From contig OX387188.1 of NCBI GenBank assembly GCA_947561395.2, forward strand, positions 41,039,942 to 41,103,941: DNA of 64,000 nucleotides. The letters run 5' to 3'. The notes below the pieces were generated by a model. The model saw only the letters and a program-made list of their open reading frames with translations. It had not been told where the DNA came from and made no database searches. The stretch is from Buxus sempervirens. Taxonomy: Eukaryota; Streptophyta; Magnoliopsida; Buxales; Buxaceae. Positions within the stretch are counted from its first letter, which is position 1. The number at the start of each line of letters is the position of its first letter. Positions 27,477-59,104 of this stretch are shown piece after piece. The translations under genes were made by a program, and so were the position numbers.

Positions 27477-27478
27477 AT

Positions 27479-32826: not shown

Positions 32827-34638
32827 TTAGGAACTTGAATGCCTAATTCGTACGCCTATCCTAATATATGGCAACCGAGAGATTATCCCATCTACCCGGC
32901 TTCAACTCTATCGCTAATCGCAACAGGCGTAGCTCGGTTCATTAGGAAAAATTAATTCCTAGCTAGTACATTCTTGCCGTACGCGCAAAGCCTCTTGGTC
33001 CAGTGGTCTCTCTCATTGGACCAGATAAATTACGACTTACGAGCCTCCCTCCTTCGGACCCCACAATTAGGCGATTTAAAACTTTTGGGTTTTTGCAGTG
33101 TTTTTGCCAAATTAAATACGTTATTACTAGCCAAAAACAACCGCTTAAGCATTTAGGGGTGGCTATAAACCGCCGCCAATAGTGTCAATCGGTAAACCAA
33201 TATGTCTTTCCCCTCCAAAGCTGACATTATTAGCGGGATATTCGTTTTTGAACGTAGAGGCGTAGAAGAGTATATAGTGTGGATCCTATTTCCCAAACAA
33301 TATTAGTGGTGCATCTTTTCCCGAAAGAATAAAATTGTATATAGTGTGCATCCTTTCTTCACAAACAATTAATGATATTGGTGTATCTTTTTCTGAAAGT
33401 ATAGGCATAGAGGTGTACATAATGTGTATCTTATACCCATTTAAGTGCTTATGGCATGTAAATTAGTATGCCCCAAATCGCCTATGACTATGCAATTTAC
33501 TTGAAAAATGTTATTAAGAGCCTCTTTAAGAGAAAAAAATTAGTGCATCTTACACGCAAAAAAGAAAAATGCGTCTAACATGTAAAATTGATGTACTCTT
33601 TTGGGATACCATATAAGGGGGAAATTACGTATTTTCGAAGTGTGTAGCATCTTGTCATTTGAAGAAAGGTTTAGATTTTCTGAGAGAACAATTTCAGTGC
33701 GTAGAAAAACCTATTTTTTTCGTCTTTGTTCTTTTGTGAAATAACTTCATCTTGTACAAGAAATTAGTTCTTTCAACATATCTTAAATTTCCAAACAAAC
33801 TCTATCAAACTCCTTAATACAAGATATCCATCTACACCTACCTCTTCGATTGGCTGTCTTTGTTACAAGACTAAAATATATCACGAGAGAGAGGAGCGAT
33901 ATAACCATACCCAATCTAAATCAATCAGTCGGGTAAAGGCCCTGCAGATTAATCAAGTAGAAATGGACTTGACTATATAAGACAAAATATTTCATGAATA
34001 ATCGATTCTATTATGAGACCGAGGTCATTCAGATGTTTAGAACTCCTAAAGTTTAGATTAAAGAATACATTAGTCTCTAGGTAGAAACTTTATTTGCTAC
34101 TGGTTAGCAAGACCCAGTGAATCAACTAACCGCACTGTTGTTCTTAAAACAGGGAAAACAGATGGGGGGTGATCGCGTTCAATTTGAGTCAGTGGCTTCG
34201 GTTGCCTTGAATCTTATATGATATTCATATTATCAACTGCTGTTGTTTTTCTACATAAATTAAAGAACCTGAAGCTTTTTGTACTGTAAATATTCTTTGC
34301 ACATGACCCCACAAAAATCTAATCCCTCCCCATCATCCCTACCTAATACAACTCCAGAACCTGCTCGTAACAGTTTTGGCACCCGCTTATTCCTGCCTGA
34401 GGAATCAGATCAAACTTCCAGAAAAGCAGAATTCTCACTTGGGTAGGGTTCATCTGTCTCTGACTATCCTCCCCTGCACCATCCTCGCCTCAAAAAGAAA
34501 AGGAGAAAGAAATAATGAATGAATTGAAAGAGGCAGATGGATGGCTCCATCTATCCTCCACAGATATATGATATTGGATGCTATGGCTGCAAAACTTGTG
34601 TGTTCTACGTTTTCTTATTTTCCACGAGAGACGATTTA
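32827..34638. other. Spacer and GT31 3' region, unit 1
   Basis: No gene recognised. 33225-33450 holds imperfect ~80-bp repeats with TAGTGTGNATCCT, ACAAACAAT and GTGTATCTTTTTC-like words. 34270-34638 is probably the GT31 3' UTR on the minus strand. Unit 2 counterpart: 45755-47566. Confidence 0.45.
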
Positions 34639-35537
34639 TCATCTCATATTGCAACACTGGGGTCTTCCCAGCTGCTGCAACTTATCCCACATGCACATTT
34701 TAAGCACCTTATTTTTGCACCCTTGGAGTTGCTGAAAATGAAAACCCTAGCAGAAGTCAAACCCCGAGGGGACAAAAAGTTGACTTTTTGATTAAGTGAT
34801 ATTTGGCCACCTTGCTTTATATCATTGGATAGAGAATCTCGACACGATTCCAACGCAACTGAGTTTGCAGGAATCGGAGTCCGGATTAAGGTTCTGCGGG
34901 CGGTCAAACTTGGGCGAAGCCAAAAGTTGACTTTCTGCTAAAATCCGATCCAGAGGCCTTGCTTTATATCATTGGATAAAGAATCTCGACACGATTCCAG
35001 CGCAACTGAGTTTGCAGGAATCGGAGTCCGGATGAAGGTTCTGCGGGGCGGTCAAATTTGGGCGAAGCCAAAAGTTGACTTTCTGGTAAAATCCGATCCG
35101 GAGGCCTACCCCTAGGTCATGGGATAGAGGGCTCCGATACGATTCTAACGCCACTGAGTTTGCCCAGATCGGAGCCCGGGTGAAGAAAATATGAGCTGGC
35201 GAAGTTCCCGAGCAGCAAAACCGGCGAACTGCGCACGTGGCAAAAAGCTGCACACGTGGCGAGTTGCGCAGGAAAATATCTCGGGGATCAAATCCGTAAA
35301 TATCCAAACATTCAAAATATCCCAGGGACCAATCTGAAAGTATCTGAAAATATCTAAATAAAATAATATTAAACCTAAATATCCCAGGGACCATATCCTA
35401 ATTTTCAGATTTTTAAAACAAACGGGCGGCTGCATTAATGGGTTTTTAATCATTTGGTCGCTCAAGCGGGCGTGGCAGGGGGTATGCGCTCACCTTGAGC
35501 TGGGCGCCAAGGTGAGCGGCACCCCATTTCCCTTGCC

Positions 35538-35545
35538 TATATAAG
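35538..35545 (+). promoter_or_regulatory. TATA box of LTR C (also 48466-48473)
   Basis: TATATAAG within a GC-rich context, placed as the TATA of LTR D. Probably the former retroelement promoter. It points toward the GT31 gene's antisense direction. Confidence 0.55.
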
Positions 35546-36279
35546 CCGCGAGAGTCTTCATTGCAGGAGGTTGGCTGATTTCGGGGTTGGACGATTTTTG
35601 GAAAAAAGCTAAGTGTTCGGCATTTTTGCTTGGCAGCTCTCGGGTTGGAGGTTTCTGGGTGTCGGCTACCTTTGCTCGAGCCTTCTTCCTCACTCCCCAT
35701 TGCTCAAAACCCTCTCGGCATACCTCTCCTGGCCTCCACCCTCTGACAGAAACCCCTCCGACCCCATTCCCTCTCTTCCTCTTCTTCCTCATCAAACCCG
35801 AAGGAGGTAAACCCTGAGGAGATCTTGCTGTGGGCGTGGAGAGGTGTTGCTCCGGTGGCTGCACAAGGAGGCTCCACCCACGTCGGATAGGTGTTGAAAC
35901 ATCCAGGTAATGTTCCCGACGAACTCCTGTACAAAATAAATAAGTTCATTGCGATATCCTGTTTTCCAGCATTTTTGTTTGTCACCGCTATTACTTGTCT
36001 GATTGATTCGAAGGGGGAGCATGTTCCCCCATGAGTTCTCCCTCTCTGTTGTATCCCATAAAGCCCCCAGTCCCCTTCCTTGCATGTTCTGTTAGTGTTT
36101 AGGTGTTCGGATTTGCAGGTTTGTAAGGAGGTTTGATTTTCATAAAAATGTGTTTAGATTAAATCCAAAACTAGTTGGGAAGTGTTCTGAGCATGTTAGG
36201 AGGCTAGTGGAACAGTTACAGACCAAAAAAAATCGGCCAGAGATGGAGATCTCAAAAAAACAGAGAGTTGAAAATTGCA

Positions 36280-36540
36280 GTGACTTGCCGCCCATCTGGC
36301 GCCCACCTGGCGCTCACCTAGGAGGTGGGCGCCCCTTTCATCTCACTTCCCGCCGAGCTGGCGCCCACCTGGCGCTCAGCTCGCGTCCACCAAAAAAACA
36401 GGTGAAATTCTGGCGCCCTTCTCGCGCCCATCTCGCGCTCACCTCCCGCCCAGCTCGCGCTCACCTGGTATCGGGTGAGTGCAAGGTCAAAATTTCGCCC
36501 GGATTCTGGCGCCCACCTGGCGCTCACTTCAGGAGGTGAG
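36280..36540 (+). repeat. GC-rich GGCGCYCACCT word array in LTR C (also 49208-49468)
   Basis: About 15 variants of (T/C)GGCGCCCACCT, CTCGCGCTCACC and CCCGCCCAGCT, some in inverted order (AGGTGGGCGCC). It makes long open frames on both strands that are not genes. Confidence 0.8.
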
Positions 36541-37577
36541 CCCCGGGTACCTCCCCTTGGACCCAGCACAATGAGCCAATTTTTTCTTGATAAAGTGTCA
36601 ATCTTGTGTATTTTCTTATGTGATTATTGCTGAATGTGAATGATATTTCCGAACCAAACCGGATAAACCAAAAGGGTTTCTGGGTTACCCGGAAACCCGA
36701 CATGGGACTTGGACTCTCGGTCCAACTTGGTTTCCAGTGGGCCTTCCAACAGGGCCCACCTAGCCCAACCAATTCATTTTGCTTAACTAAGATAATAAGA
36801 GATTTGAGTGGGCCAGACCATTTGAGGCCCACCCAAGCCCTAATTGGGCCATGCCTGATTAAAGTAGGATGTGGTTTGGCCGAGACCACGGGTAGGGCCT
36901 ATCGGGCCCACTAAGCCCATGAACCCGACCAACTTAGGGTTTCCAAACCCTAATTCAGGAAGCCTTGGGCTTTCAAGCCCAAGCCCAGGTAAAGGGCCCC
37001 AAGCCCAGTACTTGGCCCGTTTTTGGCATAGATAAGAAAGATAAAATCAAAATCACTTGGCAACCAATTGGGGGGCCCACTCAAGGGCCCACAAGGCAAT
37101 CCCGGCCCACTTTTTGGCATGAAATCCACTTAACTAAATCAACTTGAACTCCAAAAGAAAATCAATTCAAATTGAACCAAAGTCCAAAGGGCCATACTTG
37201 GCCCACCAGGGGATACCGTGGGCCTTCCAACGGGGCCCACCCAACCAGGTTCAGATCATCTTAATTAAAAAGATAAAATCAAGTAAAGGGACCCACACCA
37301 CTTTGGCGGTCCCGCCAGACTTAATCAAAATTGCATGCTGGACTAGGAATCGGGTGAGCGAGAGACCAAAGTTGACTCAAACCAGGGAAACCTATGGGAC
37401 CCGTCACTTGACGGGGTGGACTGGGGTGTCTACGGACTTCCCCAGACCGCAACCGAGCCCCTACTTAGAATCTCAAAGCCGCAGACCAAAAGCCTTAGAA
37501 GAAGAACTTAGGCATCCAGGTGTCTGCCTGCACCCCATCAGGCAGTGGCGACTCCAACCAAAACCCGAGGCACGCGT

Positions 37578-40500
37578 TGTAAAACCCCGATTTTTCACCT
37601 AATAAATAAATAAATAATAAATAAAAGAAAATATGAGTTAAGTCCTAGTTAAAATAAAAAGTGAAGATTTAGAGAATAATTAATTCAAATAAGTTCTAAG
37701 TTGAAGGTAAAGAAAGAATTTTAATGAAATTAGCCTAAAAGAATAAAAAGGGTATTTTGGTAATTTCCAGAAAAGGGTAATTAGTAAATAGATCATCAAA
37801 TAATAATGAGAATTAGAAAATAGAAGAAAACAAATTATTTTGACAAGTTAGAAATTAAAAGAAATTAATAAAAGCCTAAAATAGGGAAAAAGGGTAATTA
37901 GGAGATTTCACGTCTTAATTTGGAGAAAATAAGGTTTTAGGTGATAATAATGTTTAATTAACTATTTTGCACGAAAATAGTTTATTTTCATGAGTTTAGA
38001 TAATAGGAAACTTAATTAGTATTATTTAAGTAGAAAAATAGAAGGTGGAGAAAAAGTAGGAATTAAATTAGAAAGGATTAGACATTAACTAGACCATGGT
38101 TGGGTTAGCCCAAATTAAACTAGCCAATTAGGGTTTGTTTAGGATTTCTAAAGCTTAGTATAAATAGGAGGCTAAGGTTAGAAGAGAGGGGATTTTCGTG
38201 GGTTTCTTATGGAGAGAAAAGAGGGAGAGAAAGGAAGGAGGTCTCTAATGGAGGTGTCTGACCAGCCACCATCAAAATGCGATCGGGGAAAATCCGCACG
38301 GTGGATCGCCTCCAAATTTGGAGGTTTTGTTCGTGACTGATAAAAATACATTATGAACGGTGGAGATTTGAATTGGAAGAGTCTAGCTTGGTGCGGTTGG
38401 GAGCAACATTCTGGTCCAGAATTAGAAGGTGTAATGGAAGAAGGATTTAGCGTATAAGGCAAGTAGTAACCCTTGGAAAACGTGAGGAATTGCATGATTT
38501 GGTTTTCTGTGATTTCATATGGTTGAATGGATTAGTCGAAACAGTATTTACATGGAATCAAATTGTTTATATTTTAGGGTTTTGTGTTCTTGAAGAATTT
38601 GCTAAAGTAAGGAAGAAACTTGGTTTGATTATGAAATAAATTATAGGATGGTATTTAATTAATAAGAATTGATCTAGAAGGCTTTAGGAATGTTTTAGAA
38701 TGTTATTAGATCAATTTAGACCAAGAAAACATAAAGCAAAAGCATAAGAATCCGAAATTGTAAAATCTGGAAAATTCTATTAAAAATTGCACGAGCGCCC
38801 AGGATCGCCTAGGATCGCCCAGCCCTGTAGAGGTAGGCGGTCTAAGTAAAATTTGTAGATTTTGGGGATTTTGTAATTCGAATAAATACTCAATAATTCT
38901 TATGATTAGTTAAGCATGTTAGCATCTTTATAAGGACCTAATTAAGCTATAAAAATTATATAATTAATTGGGAAAGATTAAGCAATAAATAGAAGGTTAT
39001 AATGAAAGGATTGTTATAAAAGAGTCAAAGGGTAAGGATATTGCTAGAAATAATACTACTGAAATTTATAGCTTACAAACATCTTTTAAACTTCATTCTA
39101 GGTCTGTAGAACATGCTGGAAAAATAAAATACAGAAAATTCAAATAGAAACTAGCTTAGGTGCTAAGGTAGGAAATTGGATTCTAATAAAGGGATTAAGA
39201 AGGAAAAGTTCAAGCATGATTTGATTTACTTTATTTTGAGCTTTAAATAGGAATATTGGCTACTGGAATTGCATAAACTCAGATTTTATCGGATTTATGA
39301 TACTTGAGTTTTATTTTGAATATAATTGGAAGAATTGCATATGTTATTCTGAAAATGCCTATAATTGGATTTGTTATGATTGAATCATGATTTTCACATG
39401 GAATGGAATACTTTGGTATGGATTGGTATGTGGTATGATATTGTTCTCTTTAATTTTACGGTTGGGTGATACGGCTTCTGTGGTAGAGTTTGATACTATC
39501 TTTTACGGCAGAGATGGGTAATCCTCTGTGTAGAGATGTGTAATCCTTTACGGGTAAAAGTGTGTATGCCTCCTACATTAGCGTGTCCTCCCGTATGTGG
39601 TTTTATCGTGGTTTGTGTCAGTGGGCTTAGCTGTATATGGATCCATAGTTTTGGCTGGTTAGCTAAGTGGTATTTAGTTTGGATTGATTTACTCCTATAT
39701 TGCGAACGCGCTTCCCTTTGCAAGTTAGTTTGCTCTGGGAGGGTCCTATGTCTGGAGGGACACCCCGGTGAGCCGCTGGTGATTCCCTGTACATGTGGAT
39801 AAGCGACCACACTCCATGTATTGATTCTGGTGCTGCATGCTGGTGGTACGTCCAACTCTGCGGGGTTCGTGCGCAATAAGTCGGTGACTACGGCTCTTGC
39901 CTAAGCTGCGCTGCATGGGGCTTGAGTATCATCAAGTAGCACTGCCCCTAAGCCGCACGGTGGAACAGCATTTAGTAGAGTGTCATCTCAAATACTTATC
40001 ATCTTTGTGAGTCCTGCAATGGCACGTGTTTTATCTCTTTTGTCGGTTTTACCTCGTTAACATCAAGAGACTGGTATTTATACATGATCGTCTGTTTTAT
40101 CGCTTTATTTGGAATTGCCATGAATAACTTGGATTCTCGTCTTATCGTTGATTAATCGAATACCTCATGACTATTTGCTTATATTGGACTGTTTCAAATT
40201 GCATGCACCTGCTACTTGCTGAGATGTAAATCTCACTCCGTTTTCCCCTATATTTTTCAGGTTGCTTGGAGAGATCGCGAAGATGGGGTTTTAATTTGAT
40301 GGGTAGAATTATAATTGGTATTAATGTCACATGTTGATTAGATAAACTTAATTGTAAATTGAATTGAATATATTGATTAAAGAATTGCTTATTTTATTTG
40401 GCCACCATAACTCTGATGTAATTGATTTATAAATTTTAAAATTATTGTGAATCTTGGTGTGTATCTGACCCAGCTTCGTGGTAACACCTCGAGTTTGATT

Positions 40501-40585
40501 GTTGAATCGGACTTGGGTTGTTACAGTAGCGAACCGGGTTCGGGTTGGGTGCCGGTTTGCACTGACCCGGGTTCGAGGCGTTACA
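37578..40585 (+). mobile_element. Solo LTR A (unit 1), nested in LTR C
   Basis: 3008 bp, TGTAAAACCC...GGCGTTACA, perfect TSD CGCGT at 37573-37577 and 40586-40590. TATAAATAGG at 38159-38168 is a likely promoter. The 3' portion shares blocks with LTR B (GAGTCCTGC, CTGCTTGCTG.GAT, CTCA.T.CGTTTT, TTTCAG), so A and B are related families. End sequences and LTR size resemble plant chromovirus (Tekay/Del-type) LTRs; this is inference. No coding domain. Confidence 0.88.
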
Positions 40586-42079
40586 CGCGTCGTTACGCGT
40601 GCGCCTCGTCGTGCGACCGAAATCGGGTGCGCACACACATCATCTGCCTTGGAGACTGGTAATGTGCTGCGTAATAGTCTTCAATGCATCCAAAATGGCA
40701 GAACTTAAAGCTGTGTCCATACTCCACAGGCCTTGAGCTATTGAACTGCTCCACCCACATTCCCATGCTCACATCTTCCATCTTGAACAACTGCATTGTA
40801 AGGAACAGTCCAAATATTCATTCAAGATTTCCAACATGGACTGAATCAACATGTGTGTGTATGCATGACAGAGAGAGAGTACAAATGACTGAGCACCAGC
40901 AGATTATCCAACTTACTCTTAGCTTGTGTTTCTCAAACTGCGATACAACAAAGTATGCAATGTCAGATGAGATAACGTAACCCGGCCCATTTGCATCGGG
41001 TGGATACTCTTCTTCTGGCCACTCCTAGAAAACCCAAAAAGGGCAGAAGGAAATTAATAATCATCTCAAGACAAAAAATTCTTTTTGGAGGTAAACAAAG
41101 AGAATGTTTTCCAATTATAAAGAGAATTGACAGTTGCATATACAAAGAGAATTGACAGTTGCATATATAAAGAGAATGTTGAATCATTTAAAAATTTTAA
41201 TCAGGCAACGATTTTGTCATATATACAATTATAATTGACAAAACTACATTATATGCATGATCCTAGATCAATCATGTTATTGTGAATTGATATTATTACC
41301 CTACCAGCCAAAAGAATGTCAGGGTCACATACCACCTCATGTTGTTTTTCATTAACAATTCCTCTAAATATTCCATGGAAATGTAAGTGCATCAACTCAG
41401 AAATTCCAACTTCACCAATTTAGTAGAAAGCTTCACTAGAAAGGTGGAGACTACAAAAGTGGCAGCATAATTGCATGAACAAGGAAATATATAGTCACCT
41501 CAATTGAAGAGAAGTCAGTTTCAATAATTTTTAAGTAATATTTTTAATCTGGTAAGGAACTCTTGTGACAGTGGCTAAGCAATGAAGAATACTGAGACCA
41601 GAGAACAATTAAAAATATTTATAATGGGGATGAGATAATTCCTTTTCTTTATGACTGATGAAAATCTTCTCAGAGAAGATACTAAGACAGGAAAGAGAGT
41701 GTTTCCTTCCGCTACTTGAAAAATAGAACTTTTCTGCCAACGAGATCGAACACAGATAAATATAGTAAACAATTTCCAAAACAATAATAATTAATCGCAA
41801 TGCAACATTACACGTGAGAAGGAAGGGAATTATGACAATAAGAATTAGATCCAAGTTAAGCCCTAAAATCCACAGTAGGTGAGTTATGAACAGTCAAGAA
41901 CCTGAAGCACAAATAAGTGAACAAGTCTTTTAAGGGGCAGCAGAAATTGTCAAAACAATACCTCATAAGTCACTGCCCATTTGCCATATCGCAGGGCCTG
42001 CGGTAGAAGTTTATGTTTCCCACATACAGGCTCCTATCAGCAGGAATTTTCTTAACTTCCTTTATCACTGCCTCCACTC

Positions 42080-43160
42080 TAGGGATGCTTATTGGGCTAT
42101 GCCGGGCTGGGGGTGCCTGGGCCGTGGCCCATTTAGGCACGGCCCGTCAGGGCACACGTCCCGACGGGCCATGGCATGCGGGTGGCCCGGGCCCGCGTCT
42201 AAGCGGGTCGGCTTGCTATGGCATGACAGGTTGGCCCGCAATTGGCTAGCTCTCTTTTCCCCTCAAAAAGTGGGTTTTAACCATTTTTTTGCCCTTTTTA
42301 TCTCCCCAACAACTATATAACAACCATATTGGGGGGATGGTTGTAATTGACTATTAAAAGACCTTTTCTACCCTTCAAACTGCTAAATAACAGTAATATT
42401 GGAGGGTAGATGTGGTAAAAAGCCAGTTTTGGATTTTTATAAATAGGCTTACCCTTTCCCACTTCAAACCACACCTCTTTTACAATCTCTTACTCTCTTC
42501 TTCTACAATCTCTTTAGCCTATCAAGAAATAGTTGCTTTGCTTAAATTGTTCAAGCATCAGAAGTGGGAAATTGGACTCTGCAAAGTTCAAGCTTCATTC
42601 TAAAGAGGTATTCTTCTATTTAATTTTCCGATTTTAAAATTAGTATATATATATATATATATATATATAAGTAATTCTCTCATTCTACCTTTCTTATTAT
42701 TTTAAAGCCTAGTATCGTGGGTGAATATTGTACAACTAAGTGCATCTCTAGAAAAGTTCTGTCACAGAGGACGCAATAATTGCCTTAAGGAAAGTGGATT
42801 TTAAGTGGGACTGTTTGTGACCCCTCCACTTACCTGAGAATTTTCGTGGTGCATTTTTGCATACTTATTCCTTACTTTACTATAGGTAGTGTATCACCAA
42901 AAATTTATTATTATATTATTTATTAAGAAATTTTTTTTTCCAAAATTTGATAATGGACCCCAGGCATCCTATGTTCTTTAACACTGAGGAAAGAGAATTT
43001 CTTAGACTCTATTCTGACCCAACTTTTCTGATGATGTGACCTAATCCCCATATGGTGACCCTCCCATCCAAGATCACGAAACTGAGTTGCCTTCCCAAAA
43101 GATGGGATCATCTTCCCTACCAGCTAGGAGCACTAAGAGGAGTAGAACCTCCAGTGTTTG
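42080..43160 (+). mobile_element. hAT transposon, left part (unit 1)
   Basis: Left end TAGGGATGCTTATTGGG with GGCCCGGGCCCGC subterminal sequence, after the 8-bp flank CTCCACTC (42072-42079). A leader with CT-rich sequence (42470-42600), an (AT)n tract at 42647-42669, and the start of the transposase reading (PYGDPPIQDHETELPSQKMG at about 43049) precede the LTR B insertion. In unit 1 the element has no right half; unit 2 joins it. Confidence 0.85.
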
Positions 43161-43597
43161 TGTAAAACCCGGAATTTTTAAGGAATTTTAATTTAGGGTG
43201 AATAGGAGATTAAAGGATTTAAAAACGAGATTAAGGGATTTAATGAGATTAATTAAATTAAACTTTAAAAGACTTGATTGCTAGTCCGGTTAGGGGTGGT
43301 TTACTTGAAGTTAACAAGCTAAATTGATTTCGGTTCGGTTCACTTGTATAGTAAAAAAAAAAATTGTTAGGTGATTGAGACCGGTTTAGTTGATTTAGGT
43401 GTAACTTGAATTTATTTGGTTTAATTGGGCAAATTGGTCTGATTCAATTGCGTTCAGTTTAGTGAATCTGGTTTATGTGTAAAAAGGGAATTTAATTGGT
43501 TTAATTAGGTTAGTTGGGTTTAAGTGGTTTATTTAAATAGGTCGGTTCATTTCTAGTAGCCCGGCTTAATGAGTCATTGGTTTAACCGGTTTAATAG

Positions 43598-43636
<39 letters not shown>

Positions 43637-45754
43637 CAGGATTAAGAACCGAAAGTGTTCTATTTTTCACTTTGTCCGTGGAAGAGGAAAAAGGGGCGCA
43701 GAGGAGAAGACGAAGGGTGAAGAAGCCTTGGCGATTTCAATTAGATCAGATCAGATTGGAGTTCTCGGCTAATCTGAATTCGAAGTTCAGGTTAGAATCA
43801 TCTAACTTAAGAGCAAATTGTAGAATTTGAATCTGAATGGGATTAAAGGATTAGATCGGATGAAAACTAATCTGAGGATGGTCGAAGTTCAGATCAGTGT
43901 TGAGAGTGGGAAATTGAAGTGCAAAAGTCAGAAGCTTGCTGGTCAATTGAAGGTTTGACAAATTGAAATCGGTAGTTAGAAGTAAGTAGCTTTTATTTTC
44001 TCCTCTTGTTTTTTTCGTTTTTAGAAGATGAGCTGATTTATTTTATGTTGGAATCTTATGGTTAGTCTCAAATTTCAAGCTTAAATTTCAGTTTGATATA
44101 GTCTGGAGTGATTGCAATTGTTTTTAGATTATTTGGAAGCAAGGCAAACCTTTGAAAATGATAAAAGCAAGGGCTGAAATGAGGAAAATCGTGACTGGTT
44201 GGCTGTGCGGGAGGAAGAAGAAGGGTTTTGAAAAATAACTACAATTTGGTGCAAAAATGATAACGTAATTAAACATTGATGTATTATTTTAGAAAATAAT
44301 TACATTTTAGTGTAACACGTTTACTGTATTAATACATTAGTTCACCGAACCTAAATAATTACTATTTAGTTTAGATTTTAGTTAGATTCAACAAATAGTT
44401 CAAACCCCAAATAAATAATTACATTTTAGTTATATTTTGAAAGAAAAATAAAAATTCAAGGAAAAAGTGTTTAAAAATGGATTTTTAGATTTGTAACTTA
44501 ATTTAAAAATAAGATATTGACAATTTAATAATAGTAAAGAGAAAAGAAATAGTTAAGATGCAATCTGACATATTGCACGAAAAGGATTTTTAAGAAGGTG
44601 ATCAAAGAATTTTGGGAAGGTAGTAGTTGAGAACAATACTTTTATTTCTAATTTGACTCTTAAAGGGGTTTTATGGAAGTTAATGGAAAGAATGTATAAA
44701 GTAAATATAAATGAAAATTTTGGTTATCGGAGGGTGTGCCAAGCTTTTAGAGAACTACAAATATTAATACTATTTTGTTGGGGCGAGAGAAAGCTTACTT
44801 GAACAAATTAAAATCAAATTAGAATAAGAAGGAATGGAGAAAATACAATTTAACTATAGAGAAACCTTTTATAAAATGTAATTGTTAATTAGGTTGGGAA
44901 AGAGTCTGTGATTAACAAGGGAATTGTAGGGAGTTTAATTTGGAATTGGAAAGACACTAAGAAAAAATATTTGTAAAACTTGATATTTGGATAAGTAATG
45001 TTTGTAAATTTCTGATCTTGTGGATACGGTGGAACCTTGATTATTATCATTGGATTTTAACCTCAGTTTAGATGAGATTGTCGTGATTATGGAATCTTTA
45101 CATGGAACTGGTTTTATGCGGATTTTTCAGAAAGAGGATTTAAATTGATTTTGAATGATTGGGTTTTGGCTTGGAATTGGTTTTCCTCCATGTACTTGGA
45201 GATACGGTTTGTGATGCTCATGTACTTGGGTAGTTGTGATACCTCCGTGTATCTCAGAGACGCCCCGTGTACCTCGGAATGTTGTTACCTCCGTGTATCT
45301 CGGGGATGCCCCGTGTAGCTCGGGATGATATGATTGAGATTGAGATGAGTTGTGCTTACTGGATTTCTCCGTTGGTTTTGGTTTTAGAGTCTAGTGGGCA
45401 TAGCTCGATATGGATCCATGTTAGGAGCTAGATAGTGGAAAGGATTGTTCTTTGCTAATCTTAACACTTTGTTCACGCACGCGTTTCCATCGTGTATCTC
45501 GATGAGGCCCTCACTGTATCTGGTTGGCTGCGGCTATGATAGGATAGTACATGCCAACCCATTACTGTACCTGGATGGGTTCTCCCGCAATAAGTCGATG
45601 ACCGTGTAGCTCGGCTTCGCTCATAAGCCGAGAGGTGGCATAGTGAGCTCGGTCTTACACTGGTTAAAGGTAGTCTTATTTCATGAGTCCTGCGGTGACT
45701 CATCAATTATTATTTCCATGATACAAACCTCTTTGTTTTACTGTATTATTCTTG
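43161..45754 (+). mobile_element. Solo LTR B, 3'-truncated by duplication junction (unit 1)
   Basis: Starts TGTAAAACCC after GTTTG (43156-43160). It is cut at 45754 where unit 2 begins, and the intact copy is 56089-59099. Contains (AT)n at 43600-43629 and a small array of CTCCGTGTATCTCGG-type words at 45240-45330. Confidence 0.92.
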
Positions 45755-47626
45755 TTAGGAACTTGAATGCCTAATTCGTACGCCTATCCTAATATATGGC
45801 AACCGAGAGATTATCCCATCTACCCGGCTTCAACTCTATCGCTAATCGCAACAGGCGTAGCTCGGTTCATTAGGAAAAATTAATTCCTAGCTAGTACATT
45901 CTTGCCGTACGCGCAAAGCCTCTTGGTCCAGTGGTCTCTCTCATTGGACCAGATAAATTACGACTTACGAGCCTCCCTCCTTCGGACCCCACAATTAGGC
46001 GATTTAAAACTTTTGGGTTTTTGCAGTGTTTTTGCCAAATTAAATACGTTATTACTAGCCAAAAACAACCGCTTAAGCATTTAGGGGTGGCTATAAACCG
46101 CCGCCAATAGTGTCAATCGGTAAACCAATATGTCTTTCCCCTCCAAAGCTGACATTATTAGCGGGATATTCGTTTTTGAACGTAGAGGCGTAGAAGAGTA
46201 TATAGTGTGGATCCTATTTCCCAAACAATATTAGTGGTGCATCTTTTCCCGAAAGAATAAAATTGTATATAGTGTGCATCCTTTCTTCACAAACAATTAA
46301 TGATATTGGTGTATCTTTTTCTGAAAGTATAGGCATAGAGGTGTACATAATGTGTATCTTATACCCATTTAAGTGCTTATGGCATGTAAATTAGTATGCC
46401 CCAAATCGCCTATGACTATGCAATTTACTTGAAAAATGTTATTAAGAGCCTCTTTAAGAGAAAAAAATTAGTGCATCTTACACGCAAAAAAGAAAAATGC
46501 GTCTAACATGTAAAATTGATGTACTCTTTTGGGATACCATATAAGGGGGAAATTACGTATTTTCGAAGTGTGTAGCATCTTGTCATTTGAAGAAAGGTTT
46601 AGATTTTCTGAGAGAACAATTTCAGTGCGTAGAAAAACCTATTTTTTTCGTCTTTGTTCTTTTGTGAAATAACTTCATCTTGTACAAGAAATTAGTTCTT
46701 TCAACATATCTTAAATTTCCAAACAAACTCTATCAAACTCCTTAATACAAGATATCCATCTACACCTACCTCTTCGATTGGCTGTCTTTGTTACAAGACT
46801 AAAATATATCACGAGAGAGAGGAGCGATATAACCATACCCAATCTAAATCAATCAGTCGGGTAAAGGCCCTGCAGATTAATCAAGTAGAAATGGACTTGA
46901 CTATATAAGACAAAATATTTCATGAATAATCGATTCTATTATGAGACCGAGGTCATTCAGATGTTTAGAACTCCTAAAGTTTAGATTAAAGAATACATTA
47001 GTCTCTAGGTAGAAACTTTATTTGCTACTGGTTAGCAAGACCCAGTGAATCAACTAACCGCACTGTTGTTCTTAAAACAGGGAAAACAGATGGGGGGTGA
47101 TCGCGTTCAATTTGAGTCAGTGGCTTCGGTTGCCTTGAATCTTATATGATATTCATATTATCAACTGCTGTTGTTTTTCTACATAAATTAAAGAACCTGA
47201 AGCTTTTTGTACTGTAAATATTCTTTGCACATGACCCCACAAAAATCTAATCCCTCCCCATCATCCCTACCTAATACAACTCCAGAACCTGCTCGTAACA
47301 GTTTTGGCACCCGCTTATTCCTGCCTGAGGAATCAGATCAAACTTCCAGAAAAGCAGAATTCTCACTTGGGTAGGGTTCATCTGTCTCTGACTATCCTCC
47401 CCTGCACCATCCTCGCCTCAAAAAGAAAAGGAGAAAGAAATAATGAATGAATTGAAAGAGGCAGATGGATGGCTCCATCTATCCTCCACAGATATATGAT
47501 ATTGGATGCTATGGCTGCAAAACTTGTGTGTTCTACGTTTTCTTATTTTCCACGAGAGACGATTTATCATCTCATATTGCAACACTGGGGTCTTCCCAGC
47601 TGCTGCAACTTATCCCACATGCACAT

Positions 47627-50600
47627 TTTAAGCACCTTATTTTTGCACCCTTGGAGTTGCTGAAAATGAAAACCCTAGCAGAAGTCAAACCCCGAGGGGA
47701 CAAAAAGTTGACTTTTTGATTAAGTGATATTTGGCCACCTTGCTTTATATCATTGGATAGAGAATCTCGACACGATTCCAACGCAACTGAGTTTGCAGGA
47801 ATCGGAGTCCGGATTAAGGTTCTGCGGGCGGTCAAACTTGGGCGAAGCCAAAAGTTGACTTTCTGCTAAAATCCGATCCAGAGGCCTTGCTTTATATCAT
47901 TGGATAAAGAATCTCGACACGATTCCAGCGCAACTGAGTTTGCAGGAATCGGAGTCCGGATGAAGGTTCTGCGGGGCGGTCAAATTTGGGCGAAGCCAAA
48001 AGTTGACTTTCTGGTAAAATCCGATCCGGAGGCCTACCCCTAGGTCATGGGATAGAGGGCTCCGATACGATTCTAACGCCACTGAGTTTGCCCAGATCGG
48101 AGCCCGGGTGAAGAAAATATGAGCTGGCGAAGTTCCCGAGCAGCAAAACCGGCGAACTGCGCACGTGGCAAAAAGCTGCACACGTGGCGAGTTGCGCAGG
48201 AAAATATCTCGGGGATCAAATCCGTAAATATCCAAACATTCAAAATATCCCAGGGACCAATCTGAAAGTATCTGAAAATATCTAAATAAAATAATATTAA
48301 ACCTAAATATCCCAGGGACCATATCCTAATTTTCAGATTTTTAAAACAAACGGGCGGCTGCATTAATGGGTTTTTAATCATTTGGTCGCTCAAGCGGGCG
48401 TGGCAGGGGGTATGCGCTCACCTTGAGCTGGGCGCCAAGGTGAGCGGCACCCCATTTCCCTTGCCTATATAAGCCGCGAGAGTCTTCATTGCAGGAGGTT
48501 GGCTGATTTCGGGGTTGGACGATTTTTGGAAAAAAGCTAAGTGTTCGGCATTTTTGCTTGGCAGCTCTCGGGTTGGAGGTTTCTGGGTGTCGGCTACCTT
48601 TGCTCGAGCCTTCTTCCTCACTCCCCATTGCTCAAAACCCTCTCGGCATACCTCTCCTGGCCTCCACCCTCTGACAGAAACCCCTCCGACCCCATTCCCT
48701 CTCTTCCTCTTCTTCCTCATCAAACCCGAAGGAGGTAAACCCTGAGGAGATCTTGCTGTGGGCGTGGAGAGGTGTTGCTCCGGTGGCTGCACAAGGAGGC
48801 TCCACCCACGTCGGATAGGTGTTGAAACATCCAGGTAATGTTCCCGACGAACTCCTGTACAAAATAAATAAGTTCATTGCGATATCCTGTTTTCCAGCAT
48901 TTTTGTTTGTCACCGCTATTACTTGTCTGATTGATTCGAAGGGGGAGCATGTTCCCCCATGAGTTCTCCCTCTCTGTTGTATCCCATAAAGCCCCCAGTC
49001 CCCTTCCTTGCATGTTCTGTTAGTGTTTAGGTGTTCGGATTTGCAGGTTTGTAAGGAGGTTTGATTTTCATAAAAATGTGTTTAGATTAAATCCAAAACT
49101 AGTTGGGAAGTGTTCTGAGCATGTTAGGAGGCTAGTGGAACAGTTACAGACCAAAAAAAATCGGCCAGAGATGGAGATCTCAAAAAAACAGAGAGTTGAA
49201 AATTGCAGTGACTTGCCGCCCATCTGGCGCCCACCTGGCGCTCACCTAGGAGGTGGGCGCCCCTTTCATCTCACTTCCCGCCGAGCTGGCGCCCACCTGG
49301 CGCTCAGCTCGCGTCCACCAAAAAAACAGGTGAAATTCTGGCGCCCTTCTCGCGCCCATCTCGCGCTCACCTCCCGCCCAGCTCGCGCTCACCTGGTATC
49401 GGGTGAGTGCAAGGTCAAAATTTCGCCCGGATTCTGGCGCCCACCTGGCGCTCACTTCAGGAGGTGAGCCCCGGGTACCTCCCCTTGGACCCAGCACAAT
49501 GAGCCAATTTTTTCTTGATAAAGTGTCAATCTTGTGTATTTTCTTATGTGATTATTGCTGAATGTGAATGATATTTCCGAACCAAACCGGATAAACCAAA
49601 AGGGTTTCTGGGTTACCCGGAAACCCGACATGGGACTTGGACTCTCGGTCCAACTTGGTTTCCAGTGGGCCTTCCAACAGGGCCCACCTAGCCCAACCAA
49701 TTCATTTTGCTTAACTAAGATAATAAGAGATTTGAGTGGGCCAGACCATTTGAGGCCCACCCAAGCCCTAATTGGGCCATGCCTGATTAAAGTAGGATGT
49801 GGTTTGGCCGAGACCACGGGTAGGGCCTATCGGGCCCACTAAGCCCATGAACCCGACCAACTTAGGGTTTCCAAACCCTAATTCAGGAAGCCTTGGGCTT
49901 TCAAGCCCAAGCCCAGGTAAAGGGCCCCAAGCCCAGTACTTGGCCCGTTTTTGGCATAGATAAGAAAGATAAAATCAAAATCACTTGGCAACCAATTGGG
50001 GGGCCCACTCAAGGGCCCACAAGGCAATCCCGGCCCACTTTTTGGCATGAAATCCACTTAACTAAATCAACTTGAACTCCAAAAGAAAATCAATTCAAAT
50101 TGAACCAAAGTCCAAAGGGCCATACTTGGCCCACCAGGGGATACCGTGGGCCTTCCAACGGGGCCCACCCAACCAGGTTCATATCATCTTAATTAAAAAG
50201 ATAAAATCAAGTAAAGGGACCCACACCACTTTGGCGGTCCCGCCAGACTTAATCAAAATTGCATGCTGGACTAGGAATCGGGTGAGCGAGAGACCAAAGT
50301 TGACTCAAACCAGGGAAACCTATGGGACCCGTCACTTGACGGGGTGGACTGGGGTGTCTACGGACTTCCCCAGACCGCAACCGAGCCCCTACTTAGAATC
50401 TCAAAGCCGCAGACCAAAAGCCTTAGAAGAAGAACTTAGGCATCCAGGTGTCTGCCTGCACCCCATCAGGCAGTGGCGACTCCAACCAAAACCCGAGGCA
50501 CGCGTTGTAAAACCCCGATTTTTCACCTAATAAATAAATAAATAATAAATAAAAGAAAATATGAGTTAAGTCCTAGTTAAAATAAAAAGTGAAGATTTAG

Positions 50601-53563
50601 AGAATAATTAATTCAAATAAGTTCTAAGTTGAAGGTAAAGAAAGAATTTTAATGAAATTAGCCTAAAAGAATAAAAAGGGTATTTTGGTAATTTCCAGAA
50701 AAGGGTAATTAGTAAATAGATCATCAAATAATAATGAGAATTAGAAAATAGAAGAAAACAAATTATTTTGACAAGTTAGAAATTAAAAGAAATTAATAAA
50801 AGCCTAAAATAGGGAAAAAGGGTAATTAGGAGATTTCACGTCTTAATTTGGAGAAAATAAGGTTTTAGGTGATAATAATGTTTAATTAACTATTTTGCAC
50901 GAAAATAGTTTATTTTCATGAGTTTAGATAATAGGAAACTTAATTAGTATTATTTAAGTAGAAAAATAGAAGGTGGAGAAAAAGTAGGAATTAAATTAGA
51001 AAGGATTAGACATTAACTAGACCATGGTTGGGTTAGCCCAAATTAAACTAGCCAATTAGGGTTTGTTTAGGATTTCTAAAGCTTAGTATAAATAGGAGGC
51101 TAAGGTTAGAAGAGAGGGGATTTTCGTGGGTTTCTTATGGAGAGAAAAGAGGGAGAGAAAGGAAGGAGGTCTCTAATGGAGGTGTCTGACCAGCCACCAT
51201 CAAAATGCGATCGGGGAAAATCCGCACGGTGGATCGCCTCCAAATTTGGAGGTTTTGTTCGTGACTGATAAAAATACATTATGAACGGTGGAGATTTGAA
51301 TTGGAAGAGTCTAGCTTGGTGCGGTTGGGAGCAACATTCTGGTCCAGAATTAGAAGGTGTAATGGAAGAAGGATTTAGCGTATAAGGCAAGTAGTAACCC
51401 TTGGAAAACGTGAGGAATTGCATGATTTGGTTTTCTGTGATTTCATATGGTTGAATGGATTAGTCGAAACAGTATTTACATGGAATCAAATTGTTTATAT
51501 TTTAGGGTTTTGTGTTCTTGAAGAATTTGCTAAAGTAAGGAAGAAACTTGGTTTGATTATGAAATAAATTATAGGATGGTATTTAATTAATAAGAATTGA
51601 TCTAGAAGGCTTTAGGAATGTTTTAGAATGTTATTAGATCAATTTAGACCAAGAAAACATAAAGCAAAAGCATAAGAATCCGAAATTGTAAAATCTGGAA
51701 AATTCTATTAAAAATTGCACGAGCGCCCAGGATCGCCTAGGATCGCCCAGCCCTGTAGAGGTAGGCGGTCTAAGTAAAATTTGTAGATTTTGGGGATTTT
51801 GTAATTCGAATAAATACTCAATAATTCTTATGATTAGTTAAGCATGTTAGCATCTTTATAAGGACCTAATTAAGCTATAAAAATTATATAATTAATTGGG
51901 AAAGATTAAGCAATAAATAGAAGGTTATAATGAAAGGATTGTTATAAAAGAGTCAAAGGGTAAGGATATTGCTAGAAATAATACTACTGAAATTTATAGC
52001 TTACAAACATCTTTTAAACTTCATTCTAGGTCTGTAGAACATGCTGGAAAAATAAAATACAGAAAATTCAAATAGAAACTAGCTTAGGTGCTAAGGTAGG
52101 AAATTGGATTCTAATAAAGGGATTAAGAAGGAAAAGTTCAAGCATGATTTGATTTACTTTATTTTGAGCTTTAAATAGGAATATTGGCTACTGGAATTGC
52201 ATAAACTCAGATTTTATCGGATTTATGATACTTGAGTTTTATTTTGAATATAATTGGAAGAATTGCATATGTTATTCTGAAAATGCCTATAATTGGATTT
52301 GTTATGATTGAATCATGATTTTCACATGGAATGGAATACTTTGGTATGGATTGGTATGTGGTATGATATTGTTCTCTTTAATTTTACGGTTGGGTGATAC
52401 GGCTTCTGTGGTAGAGTTTGATACTATCTTTTACGGCAGAGATGGGTAATCCTCTGTGTAGAGATGTGTAATCCTTTACGGGTAAAAGTGTGTATGCCTC
52501 CTACATTAGCGTGTCCTCCCGTATGTGGTTTTATCGTGGTTTGTGTCAGTGGGCTTAGCTGTATATGGATCCATAGTTTTGGCTGGTTAGCTAAGTGGTA
52601 TTTAGTTTGGATTGATTTACTCCTATATTGCGAACGCGCTTCCCTTTGCAAGTTAGTTTGCTCTGGGAGGGTCCTATGTCTGGAGGGACACCCCGGTGAG
52701 CCGCTGGTGATTCCCTGTACATGTGGATAAGCGACCACACTCCATGTATTGATTCTGGTGCTGCATGCTGGTGGTACGTCCAACTCTGCGGGGTTCGTGC
52801 GCAATAAGTCGGTGACTACGGCTCTTGCCTAAGCTGCGCTGCATGGGGCTTGAGTATCATCAAGTAGCACTGCCCCTAAGCCGCACGGTGGAACAGCATT
52901 TAGTAGAGTGTCATCTCAAATACTTATCATCTTTGTGAGTCCTGCAATGGCACGTGTTTTATCTCTTTTGTCGGTTTTACCTCGTTAACATCAAGAGACT
53001 GGTATTTATACATGATCGTCTGTTTTATCGCTTTATTTGGAATTGCCATGAATAACTTGGATTCTCGTCTTATCGTTGATTAATCGAATACCTCATGACT
53101 ATTTGCTTATATTGGACTGTTTCAAATTGCATGCACCTGCTACTTGCTGAGATGTAAATCTCACTCCGTTTTCCCCTATATTTTTCAGGTTGCTTGGAGA
53201 GATCGCGAAGATGGGGTTTTAATTTGATGGGTAGAATTATAATTGGTATTAATGTCACATGTTGATTAGATAAACTTAATTGTAAATTGAATTGAATATA
53301 TTGATTAAAGAATTGCTTATTTTATTTGGCCACCATAACTCTGATGTAATTGATTTATAAATTTTAAAATTATTGTGAATCTTGGTGTGTATCTGACCCA
53401 GCTTCGTGGTAACACCTCGAGTTTGATTGTTGAATCGGACTTGGGTTGTTACAGTAGCGAACCGGGTTCGGGTTGGGTGCCGGTTTGCACTGACCCGGGT
53501 TCGAGGCGTTACACGCGTCGTTACGCGTGCGCCTCGTCGTGCGACCGAAATCGGGTGCGCACA
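47627..53563 (+). mobile_element. Solo LTR C (unit 2)
   Basis: Duplicate of 34699-40635, with TSD CACAT on both sides (47622-47626, 53564-53568). Carries the single substitution seen between units (T at 50182). Confidence 0.88.
50506..53513 (+). mobile_element. Solo LTR A (unit 2)
   Basis: Duplicate of 37578-40585, TSD CGCGT retained. Confidence 0.88.
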
Positions 53564-56088
53564 CACATCATCTGCCTTGGAGACTGGTAATGTGCTGCGT
53601 AATAGTCTTCAATGCATCCAAAATGGCAGAACTTAAAGCTGTGTCCATACTCCACAGGCCTTGAGCTATTGAACTGCTCCACCCACATTCCCATGCTCAC
53701 ATCTTCCATCTTGAACAACTGCATTGTAAGGAACAGTCCAAATATTCATTCAAGATTTCCAACATGGACTGAATCAACATGTGTGTGTATGCATGACAGA
53801 GAGAGAGTACAAATGACTGAGCACCAGCAGATTATCCAACTTACTCTTAGCTTGTGTTTCTCAAACTGCGATACAACAAAGTATGCAATGTCAGATGAGA
53901 TAACGTAACCCGGCCCATTTGCATCGGGTGGATACTCTTCTTCTGGCCACTCCTAGAAAACCCAAAAAGGGCAGAAGGAAATTAATAATCATCTCAAGAC
54001 AAAAAATTCTTTTTGGAGGTAAACAAAGAGAATGTTTTCCAATTATAAAGAGAATTGACAGTTGCATATACAAAGAGAATTGACAGTTGCATATATAAAG
54101 AGAATGTTGAATCATTTAAAAATTTTAATCAGGCAACGATTTTGTCATATATACAATTATAATTGACAAAACTACATTATATGCATGATCCTAGATCAAT
54201 CATGTTATTGTGAATTGATATTATTACCCTACCAGCCAAAAGAATGTCAGGGTCACATACCACCTCATGTTGTTTTTCATTAACAATTCCTCTAAATATT
54301 CCATGGAAATGTAAGTGCATCAACTCAGAAATTCCAACTTCACCAATTTAGTAGAAAGCTTCACTAGAAAGGTGGAGACTACAAAAGTGGCAGCATAATT
54401 GCATGAACAAGGAAATATATAGTCACCTCAATTGAAGAGAAGTCAGTTTCAATAATTTTTAAGTAATATTTTTAATCTGGTAAGGAACTCTTGTGACAGT
54501 GGCTAAGCAATGAAGAATACTGAGACCAGAGAACAATTAAAAATATTTATAATGGGGATGAGATAATTCCTTTTCTTTATGACTGATGAAAATCTTCTCA
54601 GAGAAGATACTAAGACAGGAAAGAGAGTGTTTCCTTCCGCTACTTGAAAAATAGAACTTTTCTGCCAACGAGATCGAACACAGATAAATATAGTAAACAA
54701 TTTCCAAAACAATAATAATTAATCGCAATGCAACATTACACGTGAGAAGGAAGGGAATTATGACAATAAGAATTAGATCCAAGTTAAGCCCTAAAATCCA
54801 CAGTAGGTGAGTTATGAACAGTCAAGAACCTGAAGCACAAATAAGTGAACAAGTCTTTTAAGGGGCAGCAGAAATTGTCAAAACAATACCTCATAAGTCA
54901 CTGCCCATTTGCCATATCGCAGGGCCTGCGGTAGAAGTTTATGTTTCCCACATACAGGCTCCTATCAGCAGGAATTTTCTTAACTTCCTTTATCACTGCC
55001 TCCACTCTAGGGATGCTTATTGGGCTATGCCGGGCTGGGGGTGCCTGGGCCGTGGCCCATTTAGGCACGGCCCGTCAGGGCACACGTCCCGACGGGCCAT
55101 GGCATGCGGGTGGCCCGGGCCCGCGTCTAAGCGGGTCGGCTTGCTATGGCATGACAGGTTGGCCCGCAATTGGCTAGCTCTCTTTTCCCCTCAAAAAGTG
55201 GGTTTTAACCATTTTTTTGCCCTTTTTATCTCCCCAACAACTATATAACAACCATATTGGGGGGATGGTTGTAATTGACTATTAAAAGACCTTTTCTACC
55301 CTTCAAACTGCTAAATAACAGTAATATTGGAGGGTAGATGTGGTAAAAAGCCAGTTTTGGATTTTTATAAATAGGCTTACCCTTTCCCACTTCAAACCAC
55401 ACCTCTTTTACAATCTCTTACTCTCTTCTTCTACAATCTCTTTAGCCTATCAAGAAATAGTTGCTTTGCTTAAATTGTTCAAGCATCAGAAGTGGGAAAT
55501 TGGACTCTGCAAAGTTCAAGCTTCATTCTAAAGAGGTATTCTTCTATTTAATTTTCCGATTTTAAAATTAGTATATATATATATATATATATATATAAGT
55601 AATTCTCTCATTCTACCTTTCTTATTATTTTAAAGCCTAGTATCGTGGGTGAATATTGTACAACTAAGTGCATCTCTAGAAAAGTTCTGTCACAGAGGAC
55701 GCAATAATTGCCTTAAGGAAAGTGGATTTTAAGTGGGACTGTTTGTGACCCCTCCACTTACCTGAGAATTTTCGTGGTGCATTTTTGCATACTTATTCCT
55801 TACTTTACTATAGGTAGTGTATCACCAAAAATTTATTATTATATTATTTATTAAGAAATTTTTTTTTCCAAAATTTGATAATGGACCCCAGGCATCCTAT
55901 GTTCTTTAACACTGAGGAAAGAGAATTTCTTAGACTCTATTCTGACCCAACTTTTCTGATGATGTGACCTAATCCCCATATGGTGACCCTCCCATCCAAG
56001 ATCACGAAACTGAGTTGCCTTCCCAAAAGATGGGATCATCTTCCCTACCAGCTAGGAGCACTAAGAGGAGTAGAACCTCCAGTGTTTG

Positions 56089-56525
56089 TGTAAAACCCGG
56101 AATTTTTAAGGAATTTTAATTTAGGGTGAATAGGAGATTAAAGGATTTAAAAACGAGATTAAGGGATTTAATGAGATTAATTAAATTAAACTTTAAAAGA
56201 CTTGATTGCTAGTCCGGTTAGGGGTGGTTTACTTGAAGTTAACAAGCTAAATTGATTTCGGTTCGGTTCACTTGTATAGTAAAAAAAAAAATTGTTAGGT
56301 GATTGAGACCGGTTTAGTTGATTTAGGTGTAACTTGAATTTATTTGGTTTAATTGGGCAAATTGGTCTGATTCAATTGCGTTCAGTTTAGTGAATCTGGT
56401 TTATGTGTAAAAAGGGAATTTAATTGGTTTAATTAGGTTAGTTGGGTTTAAGTGGTTTATTTAAATAGGTCGGTTCATTTCTAGTAGCCCGGCTTAATGA
56501 GTCATTGGTTTAACCGGTTTAATAG

Positions 56526-56570
<45 letters not shown>

Positions 56571-59099
56571 CAGGATTAAGAACCGAAAGTGTTCTATTTT
56601 TCACTTTGTCCGTGGAAGAGGAAAAAGGGGCGCAGAGGAGAAGACGAAGGGTGAAGAAGCCTTGGCGATTTCAATTAGATCAGATCAGATTGGAGTTCTC
56701 GGCTAATCTGAATTCGAAGTTCAGGTTAGAATCATCTAACTTAAGAGCAAATTGTAGAATTTGAATCTGAATGGGATTAAAGGATTAGATCGGATGAAAA
56801 CTAATCTGAGGATGGTCGAAGTTCAGATCAGTGTTGAGAGTGGGAAATTGAAGTGCAAAAGTCAGAAGCTTGCTGGTCAATTGAAGGTTTGACAAATTGA
56901 AATCGGTAGTTAGAAGTAAGTAGCTTTTATTTTCTCCTCTTGTTTTTTTCGTTTTTAGAAGATGAGCTGATTTATTTTATGTTGGAATCTTATGGTTAGT
57001 CTCAAATTTCAAGCTTAAATTTCAGTTTGATATAGTCTGGAGTGATTGCAATTGTTTTTAGATTATTTGGAAGCAAGGCAAACCTTTGAAAATGATAAAA
57101 GCAAGGGCTGAAATGAGGAAAATCGTGACTGGTTGGCTGTGCGGGAGGAAGAAGAAGGGTTTTGAAAAATAACTACAATTTGGTGCAAAAATGATAACGT
57201 AATTAAACATTGATGTATTATTTTAGAAAATAATTACATTTTAGTGTAACACGTTTACTGTATTAATACATTAGTTCACCGAACCTAAATAATTACTATT
57301 TAGTTTAGATTTTAGTTAGATTCAACAAATAGTTCAAACCCCAAATAAATAATTACATTTTAGTTATATTTTGAAAGAAAAATAAAAATTCAAGGAAAAA
57401 GTGTTTAAAAATGGATTTTTAGATTTGTAACTTAATTTAAAAATAAGATATTGACAATTTAATAATAGTAAAGAGAAAAGAAATAGTTAAGATGCAATCT
57501 GACATATTGCACGAAAAGGATTTTTAAGAAGGTGATCAAAGAATTTTGGGAAGGTAGTAGTTGAGAACAATACTTTTATTTCTAATTTGACTCTTAAAGG
57601 GGTTTTATGGAAGTTAATGGAAAGAATGTATAAAGTAAATATAAATGAAAATTTTGGTTATCGGAGGGTGTGCCAAGCTTTTAGAGAACTACAAATATTA
57701 ATACTATTTTGTTGGGGCGAGAGAAAGCTTACTTGAACAAATTAAAATCAAATTAGAATAAGAAGGAATGGAGAAAATACAATTTAACTATAGAGAAACC
57801 TTTTATAAAATGTAATTGTTAATTAGGTTGGGAAAGAGTCTGTGATTAACAAGGGAATTGTAGGGAGTTTAATTTGGAATTGGAAAGACACTAAGAAAAA
57901 ATATTTGTAAAACTTGATATTTGGATAAGTAATGTTTGTAAATTTCTGATCTTGTGGATACGGTGGAACCTTGATTATTATCATTGGATTTTAACCTCAG
58001 TTTAGATGAGATTGTCGTGATTATGGAATCTTTACATGGAACTGGTTTTATGCGGATTTTTCAGAAAGAGGATTTAAATTGATTTTGAATGATTGGGTTT
58101 TGGCTTGGAATTGGTTTTCCTCCATGTACTTGGAGATACGGTTTGTGATGCTCATGTACTTGGGTAGTTGTGATACCTCCGTGTATCTCAGAGACGCCCC
58201 GTGTACCTCGGAATGTTGTTACCTCCGTGTATCTCGGGGATGCCCCGTGTAGCTCGGGATGATATGATTGAGATTGAGATGAGTTGTGCTTACTGGATTT
58301 CTCCGTTGGTTTTGGTTTTAGAGTCTAGTGGGCATAGCTCGATATGGATCCATGTTAGGAGCTAGATAGTGGAAAGGATTGTTCTTTGCTAATCTTAACA
58401 CTTTGTTCACGCACGCGTTTCCATCGTGTATCTCGATGAGGCCCTCACTGTATCTGGTTGGCTGCGGCTATGATAGGATAGTACATGCCAACCCATTACT
58501 GTACCTGGATGGGTTCTCCCGCAATAAGTCGATGACCGTGTAGCTCGGCTTCGCTCATAAGCCGAGAGGTGGCATAGTGAGCTCGGTCTTACACTGGTTA
58601 AAGGTAGTCTTATTTCATGAGTCCTGCGGTGACTCATCAATTATTATTTCCATGATACAAACCTCTTTGTTTTACTGTATTATTCTTGTTATCTCGTTCT
58701 GATCGATGGTTTATTGTTGGATTATTCAGATTACTCGGAACTGATGTATTATCGCTACTATTGCACGATTTACGACTGTATCATGGTTTAGAACTGATAA
58801 ACTGTATTTGTGCATGCATGTGCTGCTTGCTGGGATATTCGTATCTCATTACGTTTTGTTTTGTTTTGTTTTCAGTTTCTGGTAAGGACGACACAGCGGG
58901 TATATGCTCGGTTCATGTGAGTTAGCATTGGTTATAGTATTTTATCTTTGAGCTTGGGTTATAGTGCACTCTGATTATCCAGTTATTATTGTGTATTCAT
59001 GTTTTTCCTTCACTTTGATATTGCTATCCTGGGTTATATATATTAACCTTCGGAGATAAGTTACGATTTCTCTACGTAACTTGGATCCGGGGCGTTACA
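56089..59099 (+). mobile_element. Solo LTR B (unit 2 and beyond), complete
   Basis: 3011 bp, TGTAAAACCC...GGCGTTACA, perfect TSD GTTTG at 56084-56088 and 59100-59104. It interrupts the hAT transposase between AGT-GTT|TGG codons (TSSVW). No internal retroelement domain remains, so it is a solo LTR. Confidence 0.92.
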
Positions 59100-59104
59100 G
59101 TTTG

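Follow-up and report, generated by a model that had tools for sequence, protein, structure and literature searches.

How did two nearly identical segments of about 12.93 kb come to stand head to tail in the Buxus sempervirens genome, and do they reflect one recent duplication in the plant or a duplicate made during assembly? The segments lie in the window, the whole stretch of 64,000 nucleotides analysed here (contig C10, 41,039,942-41,103,941), and the genome searched comprised 676.5 Mb in 247 contigs. Self-BLAST of the window returned a single dominant match, 32824-45757 against 45752-58691. Compared base by base, 32827-45754 and 45755-58688 showed one substitution and an AT tract that differs purely in length, by 6 bp; the second mismatch given by BLAST is base 32826/45754, directly outside the unit. 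An earlier note on this DNA had described a near-identical head-to-tail duplication of ~12.93 kb whose copies differ by one substitution (37254/50182) and a 6-bp change in an AT repeat. Self-BLAST and the direct comparison of the units confirmed the duplication, and both differences were recovered base by base.

32827..45754, + strand: unit copy A, 12,928 bp, delimited by self-BLAST and direct comparison
45755..58688, + strand: unit copy B, 12,934 bp; relative to copy A it carries one substitution and 6 additional bp in the AT repeat
37254, + strand: sole substitution between the copies, G in copy A and T at 50182 in copy B
43600..43633, + strand: AT repeat, 34 bp in copy A and 40 bp at 56528-56567 in copy B

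The unit does not appear to be an insertion copied from elsewhere: a search with 32100-33600 brought up no third copy in the assembly (14/14 candidates scored), and 100% identity to 44600-45754 was confined, among the matches listed (40 of 2237 candidates scored), to the two copies in the window. A genome search with the whole unit (32 of 24,366 candidates scored) listed mainly copies of a solo LTR within it (solo LTR 1), and the window's own two units were absent from that list. The result for 32100-33600 also bears on a duplicated haplotype, one of the examples of an assembly error named in the earlier note, in which both alleles of one locus would have been kept in tandem. One substitution and one microsatellite difference do resemble allelic differences. 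Against this, the search gave no sign of a leftover haplotig, a test that applies to 32100-33600 only, and the interval would need a heterozygosity of ~8e-5, while such errors are tied to raised heterozygosity in the account of PMC9516828. Two alleles would have to be separated by a single substitution across 12.9 kb, which makes the haplotype reading less likely than an overlap of contigs from the same haplotype; we consider a duplicated haplotype very unlikely.

The two outer edges and the middle joint were compared with related sequences. At the right edge, the relevant element is a second solo LTR (LTR B), present in both copies.

56089..59099, + strand: complete solo LTR B, 3011 bp, running from TGTAAAACCC to GGCGTTACA, with TG..CA termini and the target site duplication (TSD) GTTTG; spans the right-hand boundary of copy B
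43161..45754, + strand: LTR B in copy A, cut by the junction; its start is inferred by offset from copy B
58689..59099, + strand: last 411 bp of LTR B, the native right flank, missing from copy A

In copy B, LTR B carries GTTTG on both sides and spans 58688/58689. The search with 44600-45754 listed 42 matches (40 of 2237 candidates scored), from which ten loci were fetched, two of them being the window's own. All eight others, the best eight outside the window (89-97% identity), run through 58688 to 59082-59113; aligned to copy A, the same eight end at 45755-45757. The claim that the duplication cut LTR B in mid-sequence thus held, the element being whole in copy B and lacking its last 411 bp in copy A. 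Judged from these alignments, the right edge of copy B is ancestral, because a whole LTR with its target site duplication crosses it and 8/8 related loci continue through it. The missing end of LTR B in copy A would be due to the duplication event.

The left edge adjoins pieces of a gene of the AAA-ATPase type and falls within a short palindrome.

30996..32605, - strand: pieces of an AAA-ATPase (At3g28540 type) next to the left edge, outside the unit, with the reading frame in several pieces
32819..32831, no strand: 13-bp perfect palindrome CCTAATTATTAGG, which holds the left breakpoint

The pieces matched the AAA_assoc, AAA and At3g28540-type lid domains of Pfam, and the likely start codon, placed by eye against a neighbouring copy, lies ~0.22 kb from the edge. 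Both AAA-ATPase paralogues on contig C1 (2/2) align through 32826 to 32832 at 83-84% identity, that is, 6 bp past the break, and a match on contig C15 likewise ends at 32832. Five other AAA loci on C10, compared by match coordinates, match the gene side and end at 32643-32644. Three of the five also match to the right of the left edge, from 33369 onward, with order and strand conserved and with gene-side to right-side distances of 0.6, 2.2 and 7.2 kb, compared with 0.7 kb here; the remaining two gave no match from the right of the edge. These alignments suggest that the left edge is probably ancestral as well, on thinner evidence than the right edge.

Palindromes with arms of at least 6 cover 1.5% of window positions, and the location of the left break in one of them was noticed after the fact. 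The 28-bp block beside the palindrome (32832-32859) is inverted in one C1 paralogue, L011 (0 of 2000 shuffles reach its score), and had no significant match in the other, L012 (177 of 2000 shuffles). The left break therefore lies within a few bases of the edge of an apparent older microinversion. On this basis, the palindrome upstream of the AAA-ATPase genes might be a weak spot that was reused, having broken at least twice, with the second break giving rise, next to a multi-copy AAA-ATPase cluster, to a fresh tandem duplication that is probably still polymorphic; we regard this fuller account as improbable. Hairpin-driven fragility at the edges was rejected on the predicted DNA fold energies, which are ordinary, since stability equal to or greater than that of the two edge segments was seen in 64% and 76% of 300 random segments.

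The joint between the copies is the one boundary for which a derived state was indicated.

45752..45757, no strand: derived junction, ending in ATTCTTG on the left and continuing with TTAGGAAC on the right; TTA is common to both parental edges

A 200-bp query centred on the junction listed 40 matches (40 of 735 candidates scored), 3 of them inside the window. All 37 listed matches outside the window end at query base 101-103, which corresponds to window positions 45755-45757, and none among the matches listed crosses the junction. The sequence runs straight from the interior of LTR B into the AAA upstream sequence with no inserted base. The window contains no N, and therefore there is no scaffold gap at the join.

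Direct comparison of the edges bore out the statement that the junction shares TTA alone: no homology joining them was found beyond these 3 bp, and no transposon terminus was found at the junction. Between the unit and the window flanks we detected six matches (37-371 bp, 71-89% identity), none of them at the unit edges. Duplication by non-allelic homologous recombination (NAHR) requires long homologous repeats at both edges and these are absent at both, so that the earlier exclusion of recombination between long repeats stands. Of 200,000 breakpoint pairs drawn from the initial 45.6 kb of the window, with those less than 2 kb apart removed, 6.4% shared at least 3 bp. The TTA microhomology is therefore suggestive at most.

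The locus thus presents head-to-tail copies, outer edges that appear ancestral and one novel junction, the left edge resting on 6 bp and on C10 match coordinates. Ancestral outer edges with a new joint in the middle are predicted by one head-to-tail duplication, and equally by an unmerged contig overlap. The earlier note had offered a choice between a very young microhomology-mediated duplication and an assembly error; the polarity of the edges fits a single duplication, and an overlap too, and the 3 bp, with their 6.4% expectation by chance, give weak grounds for the word microhomology-mediated.

In the overlap reading, contigs sharing about one read length (12.9 kb) would have been placed end to end unmerged, a 'homotype' false duplication of the kind documented at contig boundaries as tandem duplicated sequence of about read length (PMC8081667). 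The present copies resemble those cases in being tandem and near-identical, and their length may be about that of the reads behind this assembly. A 12.93-kb unit would suit a typical read length, near-identity and a microhomology close to chance would both fit, and errors in the consensus, or heterozygous sites, could account for the substitution and the AT-repeat difference. Several points count against a real duplication. An assembly duplicate would be expected to be just as near-identical, and the unit, at 12.9 kb, is roughly as long as a long read. The alignments at the left edge extend 6 bp past the break, sharing of 3 bp is common enough by chance, the fold energies at both edges are unremarkable, and the worm and Arabidopsis precedents described below come from mutants. 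However, PMC8081667 describes homotype duplications with a gap between the copies, left by scaffolding, and there is none here, though gap filling could erase one. PMC9516828 likewise gives gaps among the primary characteristics of false duplications, together with half or very low depth, and the window is free of N. The gap-free join disfavours an unmerged contig overlap, and the exactly three shared bases and the break inside a palindrome (1.5% of positions) lean weakly against it. We judge the overlap unlikely, while giving it a substantial minority of our belief.

The explanation that we prefer, and hold to be likely, is a single recent tandem duplication by end joining or template switching, of a familiar size class. 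Overall, we put the odds of a real event at roughly two in three and those of an assembly duplicate, by either the overlap or the haplotype route, at roughly three in ten. Under the preferred explanation, a DNA break or replication stall would have occurred at two points ~12.9 kb apart, one inside the short palindrome upstream of the AAA-ATPase gene copy and the other inside the solo LTR. The 3-bp TTA would then have served to connect the right end of one copy, sister or homologous, with the left end of its partner, through end joining of the polymerase-theta or another type, or through a template switch.

The age of such an event can be estimated from the single substitution. A single change across 12,928 sites corresponds to ~5,500 years (95% range ~140-31,000) at the textbook plant rate of 7e-9 per site per year, and to ~26,000 years (650-144,000) at a slow tree rate of 1.5e-9. 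The LTRs of the retrotransposon at 21813-28382 carry 2 differences in 904 sites, compared with 1 in 12,928 for the units (Fisher p = 0.012). The units differ less than those LTRs, and the duplication is therefore the more recent of the two, provided that they evolved in the same manner and without gene conversion. Gene conversion could have homogenised an older duplication and masked its age, and a 12.9-kb extrachromosomal circle reintegrated by homologous recombination would yield the same final structure. One substitution in 12.9 kb makes gene conversion unnecessary, and we give these other routes hardly any credence.

What was copied consists in part of old transposon remains and lies beside a family of AAA-ATPase genes. 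Two further features inside the unit were delimited:

37578..40585, + strand: complete solo LTR 1, 3008 bp, TSD CGCGT; its counterpart in copy B is placed by offset
34756..35195, + strand: three tandem repeats of 145-148 bp inside the unit, and again in copy B

Solo LTR 1 has 30 genome matches at 95-98% identity (one of them partial) and two at 92-93%, among the matches listed (32 of 24,366 candidates scored). Together with the 2,594 bp of solo LTR B, it makes up 43% of the unit, which otherwise comprises the tandem array and sequence without an assignment. The earlier note had counted pieces of four nested elements; the two solo LTRs and one 148-bp tandem array were verified, and four nested elements were not. 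Its statement that part of a gene had been copied was not supported, as the AAA-ATPase pieces lie to the left of the unit and all 29 stop-to-stop frames of at least 75 aa overlapping unit A lacked a Pfam family above the curated cut-off, a scan limited to such frames, so that genes made of short exons or lacking Pfam domains would escape it. Two weak matches in unit frames fell below the cut-off (E 0.07-0.08). On the same 29/29 frames, a hidden gene in the unit was rejected. Two tRNA calls (43379-43474 and its twin) were taken as spurious; they lie inside LTR B and had no Rfam match at gathering score. The duplicate, with no recognised protein domain, probably has little or no function. To the right of the duplication, at a distance of 0.9 kb, there is a hAT transposase frame.

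If the duplication is real, it provides a nearly fresh example of a plant tandem duplication that started without long repeats and adjoins a gene cluster. Plants of the species may still differ in whether they carry it, in which case its rate and cost would be measurable. If it is not real, the locus is a warning case, a gap-free false duplication of read length that annotation would count as genuine.

Several known systems produce comparable structures. Reversed-ends transposition of Ac/Ds generates tandem direct duplications of 8,157 bp upward (PMC3744419), and the present locus is similar in its tandem direct arrangement, in its kilobase size and in having a hAT transposase frame nearby. 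The Ac/Ds duplications, as described there, differ in carrying transposon sequence and 8-bp target duplications at their breakpoint junctions. A hAT (Ac/Ds) origin was rejected because it requires both a transposon end and the 8-bp target duplication, whereas the junction here has no inserted base. In ATM-deficient mice, double cuts at adjacent meiotic hotspots lead to deletions and tandem duplications (PMC12918824). Among maize presence/absence breakpoints, microhomology of at least 3 nt is given for 414 of 1028 (PMC5800051). Arabidopsis mutants of the ddm1 type carry a 55-kb tandem duplication without SNPs and another of 56 kb (PMC10462705). The present case shares with them the plant host and the tandem arrangement, and the 55-kb copies, being free of SNPs, come close to the single substitution seen here; those duplications of 55-56 kb were shown by junction-spanning long reads, whereas the 12.9-kb one described here is read from assembly sequence. 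In brc-1/brd-1 lines of Caenorhabditis elegans, tandem duplications are mostly ~10-20 kb and need polymerase theta, and the wild type is described as having no such duplication in 240 generations (PMC7368036). The C. elegans cases are new events in repair mutants, unlike the single event in a plant assembly considered here, for which a pathway can be proposed by inference. The two share the head-to-tail orientation, and our unit falls in the majority size class of the polymerase-theta duplications, which arise with or without short homology. The proposed mechanism is of an ordinary class, and the locus would add one more case to a kind already described.

The following features were annotated around the 12.9-kb head-to-tail duplication (copy A, 32827-45754; copy B, 45755-58688).

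1-753, 21412-21834, 28377-29516 and 30996-32500: clustered At3g28540-type AAA-ATPase copies, also present at 41.04-41.41 Mb of the same contig
21813-28382: full-length LTR retrotransposon (904-bp LTRs; TSD GTTTG), with a 1176-aa frame on the minus strand
32819-32859: palindrome CCTAATTATTAGG, adjoined by a 28-bp block whose orientation is inverted in the paralogue L011
59558-60514: reading frame of hAT transposase type (PF14372, E 1.5e-9), 0.9 kb past the right edge of copy B

Both AAA-ATPase copies examined had broken reading frames, and additional matches were detected on contigs C1 and C15. The retrotransposon, which appears copia-like by eye, interrupts one gene copy, leaving two parts at 21412-21834 (lid domain) and 28377-29516; its LTRs carry 2 mismatches over 904 bp.

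Elsewhere in the window, dispersed segments at 16264-18193 and 62944-63994 are collinear and 88-94% alike, and 62106-62921 is likewise matched by portions of 9109-11606. A short-repeat array at 17013-17175 is built from the palindrome ACTTGTACAAGT. An unusual 34-G homopolymer (1027-1060) is possibly a weak point of sequencing or consensus.

The 28-bp block within 32819-32859, inverted in L011, an AAA-ATPase paralogue locus on C1, is likely a microinversion. The edge of this putative microinversion coincides, to a few bases, with the left duplication breakpoint (32826/32827).
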